Below, piece by piece: positions 3,935 through 11,458 of a stretch of 32,203 nt of DNA. Numbering within the stretch: position 1 is the stretch's first letter; the number at the start of each line of letters is the position of its first letter. The stretch is from IMG/VR virus record IMGVR_UViG_3300000477_000005, positions 1-32,203 of that record, one strand, 5' to 3'. Below the pieces are notes generated by a model. It ran no database searches. It had not been told where the DNA came from and worked only from the letters and a program-made list of their open reading frames with translations. The position numbers and the translations under genes are program-made. Source of the stretch: a virus.

Positions 3935-4687
3935 ATGTCTACTAAAGGAGAAAGCAAATATAAAATAGTATCTCCTTACGAAGTTTACCTTTTAGATAAA
4001 CAAGGTGAGCCTTCTAAAAGGATATGCGGAGTTCAAAGGAATAACCGTCCTAAAGGGCACCTTTGTCATAAAGATGCTGGGGCAGGTACTAATCATCCAG
4101 GAGTGGGACCTTGTAGTTCTCACGATCGTCAAATAACTAATCCCCGTAATACCTCTCTTTGGCATAAACTCAATCGCCAGCATAATGTCCCCTCGACTCT
4201 AATGGAGTTTATTGAAAATGCTAGTGATATTGAAGATAGAGTTCTTGCTTCTGTTGATGATGACATTAAGTTTTTATATGCTTTAAAAGCATATTTCTTG
4301 GAGAAGAAAGGGAGATCAAAAGATGGCCAGGAGATGGAGCTTTCTTCAGATAATATTGAGTTGGCCCTTAAAATCACTGATACTATTATCAAGGCTAAAG
4401 ATAAGAGAATCAAGATAAAGAAAGAGGTTGTGTTGGATGCTACTACCGTTCGAGCATTCATTGATCAGATATTCCGGGTAATTGTTGCTAATACAAACCA
4501 AGCCCACTCCCGTCGAATACTGACCGAGATATTAGACAATGTCATTATGCCTTTTAAGCAATCAGGCAGAATCTCCGGAGACTTTGATTTCAGCAATAAT
4601 ACGAAGAAGGTTACTAAGGAGGTTGGAGCTGAGATTGAGGAAGATGATGATTCCGGTTTCTGGGATGATCTAACCGAGGAGGACTAA
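3935..4687 (+). CDS. terS: Terminase small subunit (probable), zinc-motif type
   Basis: This would be the DNA-recognition subunit of the packaging motor. Residues 31-63 carry a Cys/His pattern with ligands C31, C44, C60 and H63, including the phrase AGAGTNHPGVGPC. I know very similar phrases (CGAxTxxGxPC...AGxGTxHxGxGxCxxHGG) from small terminases of phages of Gram-positive bacteria. The rest is mainly helical and charged with an acidic C-terminal tail, as expected for an oligomerising TerS. The gene lies directly before the large terminase: the last base of its stop (4685-4687) is the first base of the next ATG, and GAGGAGG just upstream can serve as the ribosome binding site for terL. Assignment rests on motif and position; the recognition site on DNA is unknown. 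Confidence 0.75.
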   Translation: MSTKGESKYKIVSPYEVYLLDKQGEPSKRICGVQRNNRPKGHLCHKDAGAGTNHPGVGPCSSHDRQITNPRNTSLWHKLNRQHNVPSTLMEFIENASDIEDRVLASVDDDIKFLYALKAYFLEKKGRSKDGQEMELSSDNIELALKITDTIIKAKDKRIKIKKEVVLDATTVRAFIDQIFRVIVANTNQAHSRRILTEILDNVIMPFKQSGRISGDFDFSNNTKKVTKEVGAEIEEDDDSGFWDDLTEED

Positions 4688-7011
4688 TGGCCCGTAAAAG
4701 GAAAAGAGAAGAAGAAGATGCTGTTGGTATTTGGCCTGATCAAATAGACTCGTCTTCTCATAAAGACCTATTAGCCAATTATGGAGAAGAGTGGATTGAA
4801 AAATACCAACAGGACGACTCCGGGGCTGTATATGACTGGAACCAATCTACCATTGAAGAGTTTAAGGATATAGATGTAGAGACCCTATTAACGGATCCCT
4901 ATTTCTTAAACTTGAAAGATACCGTTTTCCCGGGTGTATGGGAGGACATTATAGACTTATGGGAAGAAAGGAAAAAACGTGAAGTAAACTTAGCTTTATT
5001 CTTAGAAGGGATCGGCAGTGGCAAGTGCTATGGGGGTAATACTCTAGTTTTTAAACCTGAAGGCATTTATAGGATAAAATCATTAATGCCTAAAAATGCT
5101 AAATTAGGTTTTACTCCTTATAAAACTAAGCTATTAAATAGGGATAAAATTGTTGAATCAACTGATTACTATGTAACTGAAGAGCCCTCTAATGTTATAA
5201 AGATAACTGTTCAAAATGGGTATGAGATAAAAGGAACTCCTACTAGTAAAATAAGAGTTATAGAAGATCATGTATCAATTTGGAAAAAATTATCTGAGAT
5301 AAAAGAAGGGGATATCATTCCTATAAGAGTTAATCAGCAGTGTTTTGGGTCTGACGATATTTCTGATATTGTTAAGTTAGGCCCTAAAAAACTCAACGCT
5401 GATTTAGCCTATATTATCGGGGCTATAACAGGGGATGGGAGTATAGCTAAGGTAGGTAAAAGAGAGAATAAGACCACTGTTATAAGGATTTCTGCCCATG
5501 GTGGTGATAAGGCTATTTTGGAAAGAGTAAAAAAGGGTTTAGAAGATAATTTTTACTATAGTCCTAATATAAAAAATAGGAGGCCACAAGGGGCTGATCA
5601 TTTAGATTATATTAGCATATCTAATCAAGTTTTTGCAAAATGGCTAGAAGCATTAGGGATTAAAGGGGGGTCAAGAGAGAAAGATGTTCCAGATTGTATC
5701 CTAAGGGCGAGTAAAAAAGTTCAAAGAGGTTACTTACAAGGCTATTTTGACACAGACGGGGGTAGTCGAGAAAAAGACGGTTTGATTGAGTTATCTGCTG
5801 TTAATAGACAGAGGATAAAGGATGTTCAGGTTATGTTGGCTAATTTCGGTATTGTTTGTTACACTGGCCATCGAGTTGCTAGAAGGAGGTCTAAAGGTAA
5901 GATAATTTATGAGGCTGATGCTTGGAGAATAAAAATAAGAGGAGTTCATGCTTTAAAGTTCTACCAAGAAATAGGTTTTCATTTACCGAGTAAACAAAAA
6001 AATAAAGAGAATATTGGTAAACTAATCTATAGAGATGAAGTCCCCATATCTAAAAAATGGTTAAGAGAATATAAATCTGAGAATATATCTAGAGACTGGT
6101 CTCCTTCTAAAAGGGCAAGATTTGTTAGAAAGATATCAGGCAGAGATGCAATAACCCGCTCTTTCGTTGAAGACTATTTGGGCTATAAGCCCGATTTTTA
6201 TCATAAGGATGAATTCTATTTCCCGGTTAAAGAAATAGAGCGCCTTAAAGATAAAGAGTATTGTTATGATTTTAATATACCAGAAGGTCATAGCTTTATT
6301 GGTAATGGGGTTATTTTACATAACTCAATGAAAGCCTCGATTATAGCCTGGTTATTGAGTTACGAGCTTTGTATGCATAAGAACCCTCAGCAGCACTATG
6401 GGTTAGCGGATAATTCGGTAATCGCTATTATGCTACTTTCCCGAACCGAGACCCAGACAAGACGGGTTATTTTTACTTATGTATGGGACCGTTTTCAGTC
6501 TCAATTCAATAAAGACTATTTCCCTGTTAACCCGAAATTCTCTCGGGAGTTAAGGATAGAAAGGAACCGAACTTGTATTTATGCGGGAACTAGCTCGGCC
6601 TTATCGGCTTTGGGCTATAATGCCTATGCGGGAATTGTGGATGAGGCTAACTTTCTTGAAGTTATTGAAGACTCTAAGAAAAGCGGTGGGGATGTCTATG
6701 ATGCAGCTGAGGAGATCCATAACGCTATTTTGAATAGGATGTCTTCTCGTTTTATGAGGGAGGGAGTTATTCCTGGTATGCTTTGTATGATTTCTTCTCC
6801 TCTTTACCCTGACTCTTTTATGGAGAGAAAAATTGAACAGCTCAAAAGAGTAGGATTAGAAGAGTTAAAGGGGTTCTATCGAATTCGGCCGACTTGGGAA
6901 GCTAAAGGCGAACGGTTTTTCCCCGAGTTCTATAGGGACAATGAGTATATTGAGGTAGATATAGAGACTCTTGAGATTATAAAAGAAAACGTAAAGAGGC
7001 TGAGAAAATGA
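4687..7011 (+). CDS. terL: Large terminase ATPase half, interrupted by an intein
   Basis: This encodes the packaging ATPase. The exteins are residues 1-113 and 547-774, giving a 341-aa protein after splicing. Walker A is EGIGSGK (107-113) joined to Ser547, Walker B is AGIVDEANF (D652, E653), and a coupling-motif-like MISSP follows further on. The ORF stops soon after the ATPase fold; the RNase H-like nuclease expected in the same polypeptide is encoded separately at 8061-9092. Residues 114-546 are an intein. The stop overlaps the start of the exonuclease gene (ATGA at 7008-7011). GAGGAGG upstream of the ATG supports the chosen start. The N-terminus is Lys/Arg/Glu-rich. Without splicing the P-loop is interrupted, so the precursor should not hydrolyse ATP; this last point is inference. 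Confidence 0.92.
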   Translation: MARKRKREEEDAVGIWPDQIDSSSHKDLLANYGEEWIEKYQQDDSGAVYDWNQSTIEEFKDIDVETLLTDPYFLNLKDTVFPGVWEDIIDLWEERKKREVNLALFLEGIGSGKCYGGNTLVFKPEGIYRIKSLMPKNAKLGFTPYKTKLLNRDKIVESTDYYVTEEPSNVIKITVQNGYEIKGTPTSKIRVIEDHVSIWKKLSEIKEGDIIPIRVNQQCFGSDDISDIVKLGPKKLNADLAYIIGAITGDGSIAKVGKRENKTTVIRISAHGGDKAILERVKKGLEDNFYYSPNIKNRRPQGADHLDYISISNQVFAKWLEALGIKGGSREKDVPDCILRASKKVQRGYLQGYFDTDGGSREKDGLIELSAVNRQRIKDVQVMLANFGIVCYTGHRVARRRSKGKIIYEADAWRIKIRGVHALKFYQEIGFHLPSKQKNKENIGKLIYRDEVPISKKWLREYKSENISRDWSPSKRARFVRKISGRDAITRSFVEDYLGYKPDFYHKDEFYFPVKEIERLKDKEYCYDFNIPEGHSFIGNGVILHNSMKASIIAWLLSYELCMHKNPQQHYGLADNSVIAIMLLSRTETQTRRVIFTYVWDRFQSQFNKDYFPVNPKFSRELRIERNRTCIYAGTSSALSALGYNAYAGIVDEANFLEVIEDSKKSGGDVYDAAEEIHNAILNRMSSRFMREGVIPGMLCMISSPLYPDSFMERKIEQLKRVGLEELKGFYRIRPTWEAKGERFFPEFYRDNEYIEVDIETLEIIKENVKRLRK
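5026..6324 (+). mobile_element. LAGLIDADG homing-endonuclease intein in the TerL P-loop
   Basis: The 433-residue intein (precursor residues 114-546) begins CYGGNTLVF (Cys1, block A) and ends SFIGNGVILHN, followed by extein Ser547. It therefore has a Cys nucleophile, the penultimate His, terminal Asn and a Ser at +1: a standard class 1 layout. Two LAGLIDADG motifs flank the endonuclease core: AYIIGAITGDGS (D250) and GYLQGYFDTDGG (D357). Block B reads GTPTSKI, with Ser187 where the conserved TxxH His normally stands. Insertion is exactly between Lys and Ser of GSGKS. The element is plainly more AT-rich than the flanking exteins, which fits later acquisition. The open frame and intact motifs suggest that both the splicing and homing functions are alive. 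Confidence 0.93.
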
Positions 7012-7499
7012 GCACTTTTTGTATTGTTGATGTGGAGACAACAGGGTTTAAACCTCATCGGGATAATATATGGAGTGTGTCGGGGATTAAGGTTGTCCGT
7101 GGTCAGGTGGATAGTTTATTTGATAGTTTAGCAAGGCCCCGTAATCCCGCTAAGGCCAGTGAATTTGTAAAGGCCTCTGGCATTGAACGGGAGAAGTTTG
7201 AGGATGCAATAGCTATTGAATTTGTAGCTCAACAAGCCTTTCAATTTTTCAAAGGTTTTACTATATATGCATATAAGGCATCTTTTGATAAAAGAATGCT
7301 TGTTAGTGCTCACAGTGGGTTTAATCGATTAAGATTTGTTGACTATTTACCCATTGTTAAAGAGCGAAGGCCGGGTTTAAAGAGTTATAAATTAGAAGAA
7401 ATATCTAAAGTCTTTAATCTTAACCATAAGAAAAAAGGCTATGACTCTTTAAACGATTGTTACACTTTACTGGATTTAATTAAAAAACTAGGGCTATGA
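7008..7499 (+). CDS. DnaQ-like 3'-5' exonuclease with altered ExoIII motif
   Basis: The 163-aa protein is a compact DEDD-superfamily exonuclease. ExoI is IVDVETTG (D8, E10), ExoII is YKASFD (D94, with Lys in place of the usual Asn), and ExoIII is YDSLNDCYTLLDL (D150). The general-base position, normally His in H-x-A-x-x-D, is Tyr145, while a true DEDDy protein has Tyr one residue closer to the Asp. All four acidic metal ligands are present, so activity is plausible but the mechanism is uncertain. There is no polymerase or helicase domain attached. It starts in an ATGA overlap with the TerL ATPase gene and ends in an ATGA overlap with the amidase gene. Its setting between two terminase pieces points to packaging, DNA-end processing or homing rather than replication, which is inference. 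Confidence 0.85.
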   Translation: MSTFCIVDVETTGFKPHRDNIWSVSGIKVVRGQVDSLFDSLARPRNPAKASEFVKASGIEREKFEDAIAIEFVAQQAFQFFKGFTIYAYKASFDKRMLVSAHSGFNRLRFVDYLPIVKERRPGLKSYKLEEISKVFNLNHKKKGYDSLNDCYTLLDLIKKLGL

Positions 7500-8059
7500 A
7501 TTCAATAATAGACAGCTTTCCCGGGTCAGGTAGAGCAACACCTCTCCTTCACGATTTAGATATAGATAAGTCAGTTAGTTGCCCAAACTACAACCAGAGA
7601 GCTAAAGGAGATGAGATTATCTGTATCTGTATTCACCACTCCGGCTCTAATAACAGTGGGGGAGACCTAAACTACCTCTCTCGATCACATAACTCGGATG
7701 GCTCACGGATTTATGCAGGCTACCATTACTATATTGATTTCTCCGGTAAAGTTTATCAATTGATGGACGATGATAAGAGGGCTTGGCATGCAGGCCACAG
7801 TATTCTCCACGGTAAAACTGATGCTGGTAATAAAAGCATAAACGGTATATCTCTGGGGGTCTGTTTAACGGGCAACGGAGAACGAGAGTTTTCAAGAGAC
7901 CAATATGCCTCTCTTATACAATTAGTCTTTGCTAAACAGATAATTTATAAGGTAATACCGCCTTTTATCGTAGGGCATTTACATGTATCTCCGGGAAGGA
8001 AAATTGACCCTCAGCCCTTTGATTGGAATAAACTCTTCCGGGGCATTTATAACTCTTGA
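7496..8059 (+). CDS. N-acetylmuramoyl-L-alanine amidase (endolysin, Amidase_2/PGRP fold)
   Basis: The 187-aa protein should cut the amide bond between muramic acid and the stem peptide. CIHHSGS (H47, H48) supplies the first zinc His. HYYID with G84 and the WHAGHS segment (H98, H101) match the family core. GHLHVSPGRKIDP (H161, K169, D171) matches the usual GHxDxSPGRKxDPG. There is no signal peptide, membrane helix or separate wall-binding domain, so release would need a holin; the membrane proteins at 3466 and 17332 are candidates. It starts at an ATGA overlap with the exonuclease stop, and its own stop is separated by one base from the terminase nuclease ATG. Finding a lysin inside the packaging operon, between two terminase halves, is unusual. 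Confidence 0.9.
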   Translation: MNSIIDSFPGSGRATPLLHDLDIDKSVSCPNYNQRAKGDEIICICIHHSGSNNSGGDLNYLSRSHNSDGSRIYAGYHYYIDFSGKVYQLMDDDKRAWHAGHSILHGKTDAGNKSINGISLGVCLTGNGEREFSRDQYASLIQLVFAKQIIYKVIPPFIVGHLHVSPGRKIDPQPFDWNKLFRGIYNS

Positions 8060-8060
8060 T

Positions 8061-9092
8061 ATGGAACAAGGAAAAAGAAAACGGAAGACAGTTAAAATCC
8101 CTCTTTCCCTTAAACCGAATTTCCTAAGGGACCCAGAGAATTTTATTCGCGATATAGCGGCAATTAGTACGGAGAGTGTAAACCCGTTTATCCGGAGAAA
8201 AGATAAGATACTGGAATGGGAGGAGTCTTCAAAGAAGATCATTAATCCTTTTGATGAGGAGGCCATGGTTTTTGATGAGGACTTTTATGCTGACAGCCCC
8301 TTTAATCGATATATGCATATTGACTTGGGTGTTGTCAAAGATGCTGTAGGTATTAGTATGTGCCATATTCCCTTTTTCATTGATAGGCGAGTAAAAGTCA
8401 CAGGCCCTAATGGATTAGAGGATAGAGTAGACCGAGTTCCTTTTGTAGCTTTTGATTTTGTTGGGAGGATAAAGGCTAACCAGGGTGAGGAGATTGTGCT
8501 TTCTGAGGTTCGTCAAATAATCTATGAGCTAACTAACCTGGGTTTCTATATTGATTTGATTACGTATGATGGCTTTCAATCCGTAGAATCAATTCAAACC
8601 CTTAGGAACCAGGGATACCGAGCTGCTCGTCTCTCTATAGATAGGACGGCTACAAAGGTGCTCTCTATTAAACAGAAAGAAGATAAGCAGGGGAAAAGCA
8701 ATTACGGAATAAGAAGAGAAAGTACGGATGGTAATATCCTAGCAGCTTGGGAGGCTATTAAAGAGCTTATCTATGATAATCGAATTGATACTCCCCATCA
8801 TCCCATTCTCTTTAAAGAAGCTCGAGGCCTTCAAGAAGACCGTAAGAAAATGAAAATTGACCACCCTCCAAAGGGTAGCTCTGACTTAATTCAGTCTGTT
8901 GCTGGCTCGGCCTTTAATGCCATTAATAACGAGCAAGAGGGGGTCCTCCACGATGCTGAGTCATATACGGAGAAAACGGGGGATTCATTTTATTCTCAAC
9001 TAAACCCTTCTAAAGGCATAGATTTAGAGAAAGATAAGGTCGAAGATTGGCAAGACTCCTTTGACCCTAATGACCGAGATTATTTATATTGA
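8061..9092 (+). CDS. terL: Large terminase nuclease half (RNase H-like), separate gene
   Basis: The 343-aa protein is the DNA-cutting half of the terminase. Its acidic residues match the TerL nuclease pattern: YMHIDLGVVKDAVG (D88), LITYDGFQS (D170) and HPPKGSSDLIQSVAGSAF (D275). Residues 20-44 (NFLRDPENFIRDIAAIST...) resemble the linker that in ordinary TerL joins ATPase to nuclease, so the break lies at the domain border and no catalytic motif is lost. The ATG at 8061 follows the amidase stop by one base and has no obvious Shine-Dalgarno, so initiation probably depends on coupling to the amidase gene. An in-frame ATG at 7983 exists, but it would read through the conserved end of the amidase in another frame and is less likely. 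Confidence 0.9.
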   Translation: MEQGKRKRKTVKIPLSLKPNFLRDPENFIRDIAAISTESVNPFIRRKDKILEWEESSKKIINPFDEEAMVFDEDFYADSPFNRYMHIDLGVVKDAVGISMCHIPFFIDRRVKVTGPNGLEDRVDRVPFVAFDFVGRIKANQGEEIVLSEVRQIIYELTNLGFYIDLITYDGFQSVESIQTLRNQGYRAARLSIDRTATKVLSIKQKEDKQGKSNYGIRRESTDGNILAAWEAIKELIYDNRIDTPHHPILFKEARGLQEDRKKMKIDHPPKGSSDLIQSVAGSAFNAINNEQEGVLHDAESYTEKTGDSFYSQLNPSKGIDLEKDKVEDWQDSFDPNDRDYLY

Positions 9093-9112: not shown

Positions 9113-10954
9113 ATGAAAAAAATCTTAGAAAAAATAAGGAAGAGATTCGGGTATTTAACTATACATGAGTTTAATCAGGCTGTAGATAGTGCGGTCTCTA
9201 GAGCTGTAAATGAGACCGAGCGCTGGTATAATAACGGCCCGACTCATAGTCCAAAAACCGGTCTTCAAGAAAGCTCAGATGATCGCTTTCGTTTGTATGA
9301 ATCCCACTATAAGAAGGACTATGAAAGTAACTCGGCTAAATCTGAAGAAGACAAACAAGCTCAAGAGGATTTTAAAATACTAGAGAGTTTTACGGGGGGA
9401 TGGCACCCCCATTTTGATCGGACCTATGACCAGAGCGTACAGCAACTTCATCGAATGCAAGAGGTTACGCTTTCAAAATACTTCTCTGACCCGCATTGTC
9501 GCTCTATTATTGATAACTGGGTTAACTACACAATTGGCTCAGGTTTAAAATTCAATGTGGGTAATAAAAAGGTAGAAGAGGTTATCTCTGAGTTTCGCCG
9601 TAAGAATGGGATGGCTCAAAAAGAGAAGGAAATTCTTCAAATGCTTTTTACTGAGGGTGAAGCTTTCTTGGCTTATTTTATTAACCTTAACACCGGTGAT
9701 ATTAAATTGAGGAGGGTCCGTCCTCAAGAAATTATTGATATTGAAACTCACCCCGAGGATGTTGAGAACTATTTTGCTTACCATTGGTCATATCAAGACT
9801 CAAGGACAGGTACTACCCAAATTTACTCTGTAGATAGGTGGGTTCAAGATATTGAATACGATAATTATTTAGAGGAGACTCGATCCAAGGGTGGTATGCC
9901 CAAGAGAAGGTCAAAAAGGCACCCCGAGCTTAAGACCTCAATCCAAATGCAGTTTATTAAGCTGGGCATTGATAATGAGATCCGAGGTAGGGTACCCCTT
10001 CAACCTGTTCTTCGCTATCTCAAATATTATGAGGATTGGTTGGTTGACCGTATCATCATGAACCATGAGCGATCAAAGGTGGTATGGATTAAATCTATTA
10101 AAGGTCGCTCTCAAAGCGATTGGGCAAATAAGTCCTCTCCTGCTCAACGGGCTCCCAAAGGTGGTATTATGCTTGTTGAGACTGATAATGAGACTTATCG
10201 GATTGAGTCCTCAGAAATCCGGGCTGATGAGGCTAAGGAAGACGGTATGGCTATTTTACATGCTATTGGGGCGGGTAGTTCTCTCCCCCTGCATATCTTG
10301 AATCAAAGGGCTGATATGCAGAATTATTCAAGCATAAGAAAGGCTGATACTCCTTTTAGTCAATTCATCAAAGGCAAACAGACCCATGCTAAGGAGGCTT
10401 TTGAGAAAATGTATAGGGAGGTCATTGACCAAAAGGTCCGAGCTAAGGAGCTCCCGGAGTATACTAAAATTTACGATTATTCTCAAGAAAGCCTTCGCAA
10501 AGCTTTCCACCTTGTTAACGAGGCCTATATTGAAGGTAAAAATATTGAGGATTTAAGGGAAGAAGTGGATAAGCTAATAGAACCCGAACCGGATAAAAAA
10601 AGGGTTAGAACGATTGATATTCCACTTGGCATAGAATTTCCTGAAATCATACGGGAAGACCTAAAAGCCCAGGCAGAAGTTCTTCGGATCCATAAGGAAA
10701 TGGGTATTGCTAGTTTGGCTACTCTTGCTGCAAAAGCGGGTTACAATTGGAAAGAGGAGCTTCATAATTTGTTGGTTGAAAAAGAGACAATGAAAGAGCT
10801 CAATAGCTATGGCCAAGACCCTGAGGACGATCCCGATAATAATCAAGACGGGGATCCAGGCAACCAGGGGGATGATGGCAAGAGCGAGCCCACTGGAGAT
10901 AAGGGCCGAGATGGTGATAATAACGATGATGACGATAATAACGAAGACGATTGA
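9113..10954 (+). CDS. Portal protein
   Basis: The 613-aa protein forms the DNA channel at the unique capsid vertex and docks the terminase. Position right after the terminase, the size and the sequence fit. Residues about 120-215 contain a typical portal start (LSKYFSDPHCRSIIDNW, then VNYTIGSGLKF, then TEGEAFLAYF). A late segment (NYSSIRKADTPF) matches the clip/stem region of lambda-type portals. The last 50 residues or so are an extremely acidic, Asn/Gly/Asp-rich tail ending in DDDDNNEDD, which is probably disordered. No Shine-Dalgarno is evident before the ATG; the previous stop is 20 bases upstream. The stop overlaps a TTG of the next reading frame. Confidence 0.88.
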   Translation: MKKILEKIRKRFGYLTIHEFNQAVDSAVSRAVNETERWYNNGPTHSPKTGLQESSDDRFRLYESHYKKDYESNSAKSEEDKQAQEDFKILESFTGGWHPHFDRTYDQSVQQLHRMQEVTLSKYFSDPHCRSIIDNWVNYTIGSGLKFNVGNKKVEEVISEFRRKNGMAQKEKEILQMLFTEGEAFLAYFINLNTGDIKLRRVRPQEIIDIETHPEDVENYFAYHWSYQDSRTGTTQIYSVDRWVQDIEYDNYLEETRSKGGMPKRRSKRHPELKTSIQMQFIKLGIDNEIRGRVPLQPVLRYLKYYEDWLVDRIIMNHERSKVVWIKSIKGRSQSDWANKSSPAQRAPKGGIMLVETDNETYRIESSEIRADEAKEDGMAILHAIGAGSSLPLHILNQRADMQNYSSIRKADTPFSQFIKGKQTHAKEAFEKMYREVIDQKVRAKELPEYTKIYDYSQESLRKAFHLVNEAYIEGKNIEDLREEVDKLIEPEPDKKRVRTIDIPLGIEFPEIIREDLKAQAEVLRIHKEMGIASLATLAAKAGYNWKEELHNLLVEKETMKELNSYGQDPEDDPDNNQDGDPGNQGDDGKSEPTGDKGRDGDNNDDDDNNEDD

Positions 10955-10962
10955 GACTTGCC

Positions 10963-11184
10963 ATGGAAGATAAGAAATCACCTTTTAATCCAATTAGCGG
11001 TATCATTGATGAGGAAGAACAATCCTCTCAAGAGACCAATATAGAAGAAGTAACTGTAATTATCCGCATAGAGGGGGAGAAAAACCCCGTTTGCTTGGAT
11101 ATTAAATCTGAGCCTTTAAAGACCTGGATTGTTAATGCAATCGCAGATAAAGAGCTTTCGGAGGATAATAGCCATGAGTTTTAA
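10963..11184 (+). CDS. Small acidic unknown protein
   Basis: This 73-aa protein is rich in Glu and Ser and has a short beta-like stretch (VTVIIRIEG). I do not recognise it. The ATG at 10963 is preferred; an in-frame TTG at 10951 overlaps the portal stop and would add four residues. Its last codons overlap the start of the HNH gene, so it belongs to the portal operon. Small proteins between portal and protease vary greatly between phages. Confidence 0.6.
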   Translation: MEDKKSPFNPISGIIDEEEQSSQETNIEEVTVIIRIEGEKNPVCLDIKSEPLKTWIVNAIADKELSEDNSHEF

Positions 11185-11458
11185 TAACCCAGACGATGGT
11201 CGATTTGACGGTGAAATAGGCATAACTGAAGTTAATAAATCTATGCAACGCTTTGGTTCAAAGAACGGGCGTTGGAAGAAAGGTAGATCTAAGTCCTATC
11301 GCCGAAGGGTGACTAAGGCAAAACCGGGTGAAGTAGTTCACCATAAAGATAAGAATAAGAACAATAACAAGCCCTCTAATTTCCAAAAGATGAGTGCTGC
11401 TAAGCATAACAAGGTGCATCCGGAAAAGGGCCGTAAATCTAAAGGTAAAAGGAAATAA
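11174..11458 (+). CDS. Small HNH-type protein, possible packaging nuclease
   Basis: The 94-aa, very basic protein has the core phrase GEVVHHKDKNKNNNKPSN, followed by MSAAKHNKVH, which is the His-His, Asn, His layout of HNH nucleases. The tail is Lys/Arg/Gly-rich. The start at 11174 (MSFNNPDDG) overlaps the previous gene by 11 bases; a start at 11129 would overlap it much more. Established work on HK97-like phages shows that HNH proteins encoded beside the terminase and portal genes can be part of the packaging machine and stimulate terminase cutting, so a packaging role is attractive given the split terminase. A selfish homing role is the alternative. Confidence 0.75.
   Translation: MSFNNPDDGRFDGEIGITEVNKSMQRFGSKNGRWKKGRSKSYRRRVTKAKPGEVVHHKDKNKNNNKPSNFQKMSAAKHNKVHPEKGRKSKGKRK

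Follow-up and report, generated by a model that had tools for sequence, protein, structure and literature searches.

The window, by which we mean the whole stretch of 32,203 nucleotides that was analyzed, very probably includes a packaging operon that belongs to an uncultivated tailed phage and specifies a working large terminase subunit (TerL) made up of two polypeptides, a motor ATPase and an RNase H-like nuclease, encoded by separate genes. The association of the two chains, packaging and cutting are inferred, in the absence of any experiment, transcript or proteome. TerL is a hallmark enzyme of tailed phages and herpesviruses. An overview of jumbo phages describes the attached RNase H nuclease as a universal feature of the Caudovirales (PMC7824862).

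The window covers nearly all of a 32,371-base linear IMG/VR record which is itself incomplete. The order of the relevant genes is ATPase, exonuclease, amidase, nuclease (Table 1), and the open reading frames, coordinates and junctions given in a preliminary description of the locus were all verified: the ATPase and exonuclease genes, and the exonuclease and amidase genes, are linked by ATGA overlaps, and the ATG of the nuclease gene sits one base past the amidase stop. The gene in the TerS-like position encodes a product without a match in Pfam or PHROG; members of the same family are found upstream of the ATPase gene in three related lineages (L004, L005 and L006). In L064, a TerS-like gene (6716-7435) with the motif C..N.AG.GT.HPG..RC..H lies between the ATPase and nuclease genes rather than upstream. 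Soon after the portal gene, the window contains an HNH_3-like gene (11129-11458), and a similar gene occupies the same place in L004/L006 (10914-11264).

Table 1. Features of the predicted packaging operon (positions in the window)
Feature	Positions	Strand	Evidence
Conserved gene upstream of the ATPase gene, TerS-like position	3935..4687	+	83% aa identity to L003 counterpart; TerS identity not shown
Large-terminase ATPase gene, 774-aa precursor with intein, exteins total 341 aa	4687..7011	+	PHROG 17415 'terminase large subunit' E 2.6e-17; L036 model
N-extein, residues 1-113, ends in Walker A ...EGIGSGK	4687..5025	+	
Intein with LAGLIDADG endonuclease, Cys114 to Asn546, then Ser547	5026..6324	+	Pfam
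C-extein: remaining Walker A, Walker B VDE (D652/E653), coupling motif ISSP	6325..7008	+	
DnaQ-like (RNase_T) 3'-5' exonuclease family gene	7008..7499	+	Pfam PF00929 E 2.7e-16
N-acetylmuramoyl-L-alanine amidase (endolysin), variable slot	7496..8059	+	Pfam PF01510 (Amidase_2) E 4.7e-24
Large-terminase RNase H-like nuclease, separate gene, 343 aa	8061..9092	+	structure model + D88, D170, D275
Portal protein	9113..10954	+	Pfam SPP1_portal E 1.6e-8; PHROG 10963 portal E 1.1e-18

A search of PDB sequences with profiles of the ATPase and the nuclease detected no terminase, so that a fold search was needed. The AlphaFold2 model (pLDDT 84.2) of the ATPase from L036, an intein-free sister of the window ATPase with an 89% identical C-extein, is most similar to the ATPase domains of the P74-26, HK97 and T4 gp17 TerL proteins (Z 16-17). 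The G/G/K residues of Walker A and the D/E residues of Walker B are invariant in 24 intein-free ATPases, and the Walker B motif of the window protein reads VDEANF. Judging by the model, the gene product is a P-loop packaging ATPase of the TerL-type fold. The preliminary description listed both Walker motifs; Walker B stands, but Walker A turned out to be interrupted by an intein that had been missed. This intein, residues 114-546 of the precursor (Intein_splicing PF14890, E 1.3e-15; LAGLIDADG_3, E 1.4e-16), is placed between Lys113 and Ser547 of Walker A and retains the splicing residues, namely Cys114 at the first position, His545-Asn546 at the end, and Ser547 at +1. Intein-free alleles are present in L036, L005 and L007, the first of which reads GSGKSMKAS across the insertion site. 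Because Walker A becomes complete only once the intein is removed, the ATPase must be protein-spliced and is probably made as an inactive precursor; both splicing and homing activity are inferred. The intein DNA is 99.5% identical between the window (5026-6324) and L003 (2514-3812), whereas identity in the neighboring genes is no more than 64-82%, with synonymous sites close to saturation. This contrast is indicative of recent homing of the predicted intein unless L003 is locally mis-assembled.

The P-loop site has been described in mycobacteriophages as TerL1-a, between the invariant Lys and the Ser/Thr of Walker A (PMC5050341); the window intein shares this site with the mycobacteriophage inteins, but the latter interrupt single-chain TerL. 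An intein in L004 (4850-7051) occupies the neighboring Walker A site, between G and SGKT, so that the two sites match the a/b site pair of mycobacteriophage TerL. Nuclease-domain inteins, found here in L031 and L033, resemble that of the Mic1 cyanophage TerL (PMC7156551) which, however, is a single-chain protein. In L033 (2729-7401), the two-gene TerL contains three inteins, in Walker A, in Walker B and in the nuclease catalytic motif TFDxF.

The AlphaFold2 model of the nuclease (pLDDT 82.8) has its best matches among the nucleases of the G20c, T4 gp17, D6E, HK97 and herpesvirus terminases (Z 14-17). The window nuclease has no match in Pfam and only a weak match to a terminase PHROG. The three acidic residues named in the preliminary description, D88, D170 and D275, are present and are invariant in 36 aligned nucleases. 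The frame remains open back to an ATG at 7983, but the proteins of the relatives begin just before a conserved 'IKVP..L' motif, in support of a start at 8061. As predicted by the model, the gene product is an RNase H-fold TerL nuclease with three catalytic acidic residues. With a nuclease encoded by a separate gene, five copies per portal are no longer a requirement, and the fold also resembles those of the RuvC/Ydc2 resolvases; accordingly, one could imagine that the ATPase packages alone, in a phi29-like manner, and that the free nuclease acts outside the motor, for example, in the resolution of replication intermediates. We consider this scenario unlikely given that the similarity to the resolvases is much lower (Z about 8), the TerL nucleases being the closest folds by far, and that the nuclease stays in the packaging operon beside the portal gene and co-diverges with the ATPase (Mantel r 0.86; no more than 0.27 in any of 2000 permutations). 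Comparison of the window with L003 shows a protein identity of 92% for the C-extein and 79% for the nuclease with synonymous sites near saturation, which indicates strong purifying selection on both halves. From this selection, the co-divergence and the location beside the portal and TerS-like genes, we conclude that the two chains function jointly as a single terminase.

When compared to HK97 TerL, the ATPase and nuclease models cover residues 1-260 and 274-483, respectively, so that the gene break lies in the linker. In the fused relatives, a linker of 1-48, mostly 20-46, residues connects the final strand of the ATPase to the conserved beginning of the nuclease region (V-x-VP...RD-AG). The split forms have an ATPase that ends inside the linker region, 9-117 residues past the conserved block, and, in many cases, a nuclease that starts a few residues before its conserved start; in the window, the C-extein terminates after the linker strand 'YIEVDIETLEIIKEN'. 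The distance from the ATPase stop to the conserved nuclease region varies from 6 to 2590 bases among the split forms. The models and the position of the linker in the fused relatives thus agree with the earlier placement of the break at the natural domain border, and the split costs no catalytic or conserved part of the protein. The 30 N-terminal residues of the nuclease show no extra conservation over the rest of the protein relative to the fused homologs, and the possibility that the N-terminus is a new docking site was rejected on this ground.

To delineate the spread of the split, IMG/VR was scanned with the nuclease, the ATPase and successive alignments, named phages from a phage collection were added, and the sequences were clustered at 92%; the last scan employed a motif common to the split and fused forms, so that both could be found. 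The resulting 84 distinct nuclease lineages include 48 that are split, 31 that are fused, and 5 that are located at contig ends without a detected ATPase. All 20 named phage genomes that were inspected encode a single-chain TerL. The split lineages, which are metagenomic and come from many different assemblies, range down to about 30% nuclease identity. Lack of relatives with the same split and conserved catalytic residues would have counted against the two-polypeptide reading of the preliminary description; such relatives were looked for and found (48 lineages), and with the split kept and the catalytic residues intact, the proposal of a working two-polypeptide enzyme is supported. Given that every member of the set is a metagenome assembly, a broken or mis-assembled terL gene, resulting from sequencing error, chimerism or decay, has to be considered. 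However, the same architecture recurs in 48 lineages and many assemblies, with invariant catalytic residues and with synonymous sites near saturation, so that an assembly error is excluded as the explanation, and the broader possibility of a broken gene can for practical purposes be dismissed. Nor was a second copy of the ATPase or nuclease half, or a second complete terL, found in the 32,371-base record, with the caveat that this is an incomplete linear contig.

In the phylogenetic tree of the nuclease domain, all split forms are located on one side of a branch with 100/99 support and the fused forms are on the other side, with the exception of L030. The split/fused label requires 2 changes on this tree, compared to about 25 in shuffles; the second change is L030, in which the nuclease is fused to the C-terminal half of an ATPase with a fracture of its own at Walker B. 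A tree in which all split forms comprise a single clade without L030 is not rejected (p 0.23), and L030 may be either an unsplit sister or a re-fusion. The simplest reading of these phylogenetic data is that the split arose by one fission of an ancestral fused TerL, in the linker. The split members are all metagenomic contigs that lack a host assignment. Assignment to a prophage or host was rejected: a scan of genome contigs yielded two weak matches, one fused and one cut off at a contig end, and a scan of plasmids yielded one weak Rhizobium match.

An alternative is that the halves are rejoined during expression, by splicing of the interval as an intron, by split-intein ligation or by frameshifting. 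Interrupted terL genes are known from other phages: that of the Jug phages contains group I introns, as backed by RNA evidence (PMC12363816), and that of ICP1 contains an intron (PMC10448857); as in the window, the frames in these genomes are separate, but RNA splicing restores a single chain. Within the clade of the window itself, L008, L030 and L077 have split inteins at Walker B. Nevertheless, rejoining appears very unlikely for the window. About 1 kb of other coding sequence stands between the ATPase and the nuclease, which are in different frames; in many relatives, the nuclease starts at a conserved site of its own; and the interval genes are unrelated and variable in number, with none at all in L073 and L077, where the ATPase and nuclease frames abut, so that no intron is needed to explain the split. 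There is no intron signature in the interval: a search for Rfam introns in the gap was negative at both the gathering and a relaxed threshold, and none was detected in 12 loci, although Rfam alone does not exclude undescribed introns. No intein halves were found at the tail of the ATPase or the head of the nuclease, and a split intein at this junction was rejected; those that were found sit at Walker B. On the strength of these comparisons, joining of the halves by an intron or a split intein is disfavored, and the two-chain organization remains the preferred interpretation.

The fractured ATPases are of interest in their own right. In L008 (3145-4907), L077 (1025-2813) and L030 (3073-5976), the ATPase gene is broken at Walker B and its two open reading frames carry complementary intein halves (in L008, Intein_splicing 3-78 and 118-155), which are candidate natural split inteins. 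They resemble the fractured genes described previously (Dassa et al. 2009; PolB in MIJ3, PMC6892783). Unlike in such genes, the break between the ATPase and the nuclease in the window comes without intein halves, so the chains would stay separate. Because the ATPase of L008, a close sister of the window, is fractured, its terminase would come from three genes.

The interval between the two halves is occupied by variable sets of genes. Apart from the lineages without an interval, it consists of the exonuclease gene alone in L007, of exonuclease and amidase genes in the window, L003 and L036, of exonuclease and GH108 lysozyme genes in L004 and, by sequence resemblance, in L011, L016, L018 and others, and of the exonuclease gene and one for a DUF5675 protein in L005; other relatives encode a glycosyltransferase, a radical SAM enzyme, a metallophosphoesterase, a LAGLIDADG endonuclease or a TerS-like protein. 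In L045 (6661-9247), sulfotransferase-like and radical SAM genes are located within the terminase interval. Replacement of the amidase by GH108, DUF5675 and other genes indicates that the lysin is a swappable passenger. The preliminary description regarded both interval genes of the window as foreign, and for the variable lysin slot this characterization is apt; it does not hold for the exonuclease. The exonuclease gene is located between the ATPase and nuclease genes in 28 of the 48 split lineages, its presence there requires 3 changes on the tree (shuffles, at least 10, mean 15.5), and its sequence co-diverges with those of the ATPase and the nuclease (r 0.80-0.85). By these measures, the exonuclease has long had a stable place at the locus in many of these phages and is no recent intruder. 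In L059, L061 and L063, a DnaQ-like exonuclease gene is found upstream of the ATPase gene instead of between the halves. The catalytic residues depart from the textbook set of DnaQ-like DEDD exonucleases, DxE, a motif II Asp and Hx4D. Residues D8, E10, D112 and D150 are invariant in the five exonuclease sequences compared, and motif II has Glu in L004 and L007. Where the catalytic His of the Hx4D motif is expected, the window and L003 have Tyr145 (GYDSLND), and L036 and L008 have Phe. It is conceivable, if rather doubtful, that many of these phages possess a three-part terminase consisting of the motor ATPase, the DnaQ-like exonuclease and the RNase H nuclease, in which the exonuclease, kept between the other two genes over very deep divergence, would trim or proofread the DNA ends made by the nuclease as a functional subunit of a modular enzyme.

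Taken together, the observations are best explained by the following scenario. The ancestral single-chain TerL would have been cut once in the variable linker between the ATPase and the nuclease, and the two-gene form would have been inherited for a long time since. Both chains would be co-expressed from one tightly coupled operon that consists of the TerS-like, ATPase, exonuclease, lysin, nuclease and portal genes. The ATPase precursor would be made first, and splicing would have to restore the junction between GSGK and S before ATP can be bound; the spliced ATPase would then drive translocation from its place on the portal, joined there by the nuclease, a separate chain that would make the cuts at initiation and termination. 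The splicing activity, the physical association of the chains and the recruitment of the nuclease by the ATPase or by the portal are inferred, as is the control of the nuclease, which would be re-made through protein-protein binding such that cutting is held off during translocation. When the ATPase and nuclease domains of a normal TerL are separated, as known from work on T4 gp17, they remain enzymatically active but packaging is lost, so that the split form would need some compensation; none was identified.

The single-chain TerL proteins of Gordonia Eggsie/GTE7-like, Vibrio sm030/SIO-2-like, Rhizobium, Maribacter and Streptomyces phages are homologous to the two-gene form (about 20-36% identity) and have the same order, catalytic residues and linker position as the window, but in one chain instead of two genes. 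P-loop and nuclease-domain inteins of TerL and intron-broken terL genes are already known. The open-access literature, to which the search was limited with subscription journals not covered, yielded no description of a stable two-gene TerL. The 315-position profile of PHROG 2699, annotated as 'terminase large subunit', weakly matches 4 of 36 relatives, and its length hints at free-standing TerL proteins of nuclease size in reference genomes, although these could be intron-split pieces. Given this low rate of matches and the lack of a Pfam match for the window nuclease, such phages may be overlooked or wrongly assigned by annotation and taxonomy pipelines built around a single full-length TerL. 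A large lineage in which the motor and the nuclease have long been separated offers a natural experiment on the way cutting is prevented while DNA is translocated and set off when translocation ends, and also on the need for five nucleases per motor.
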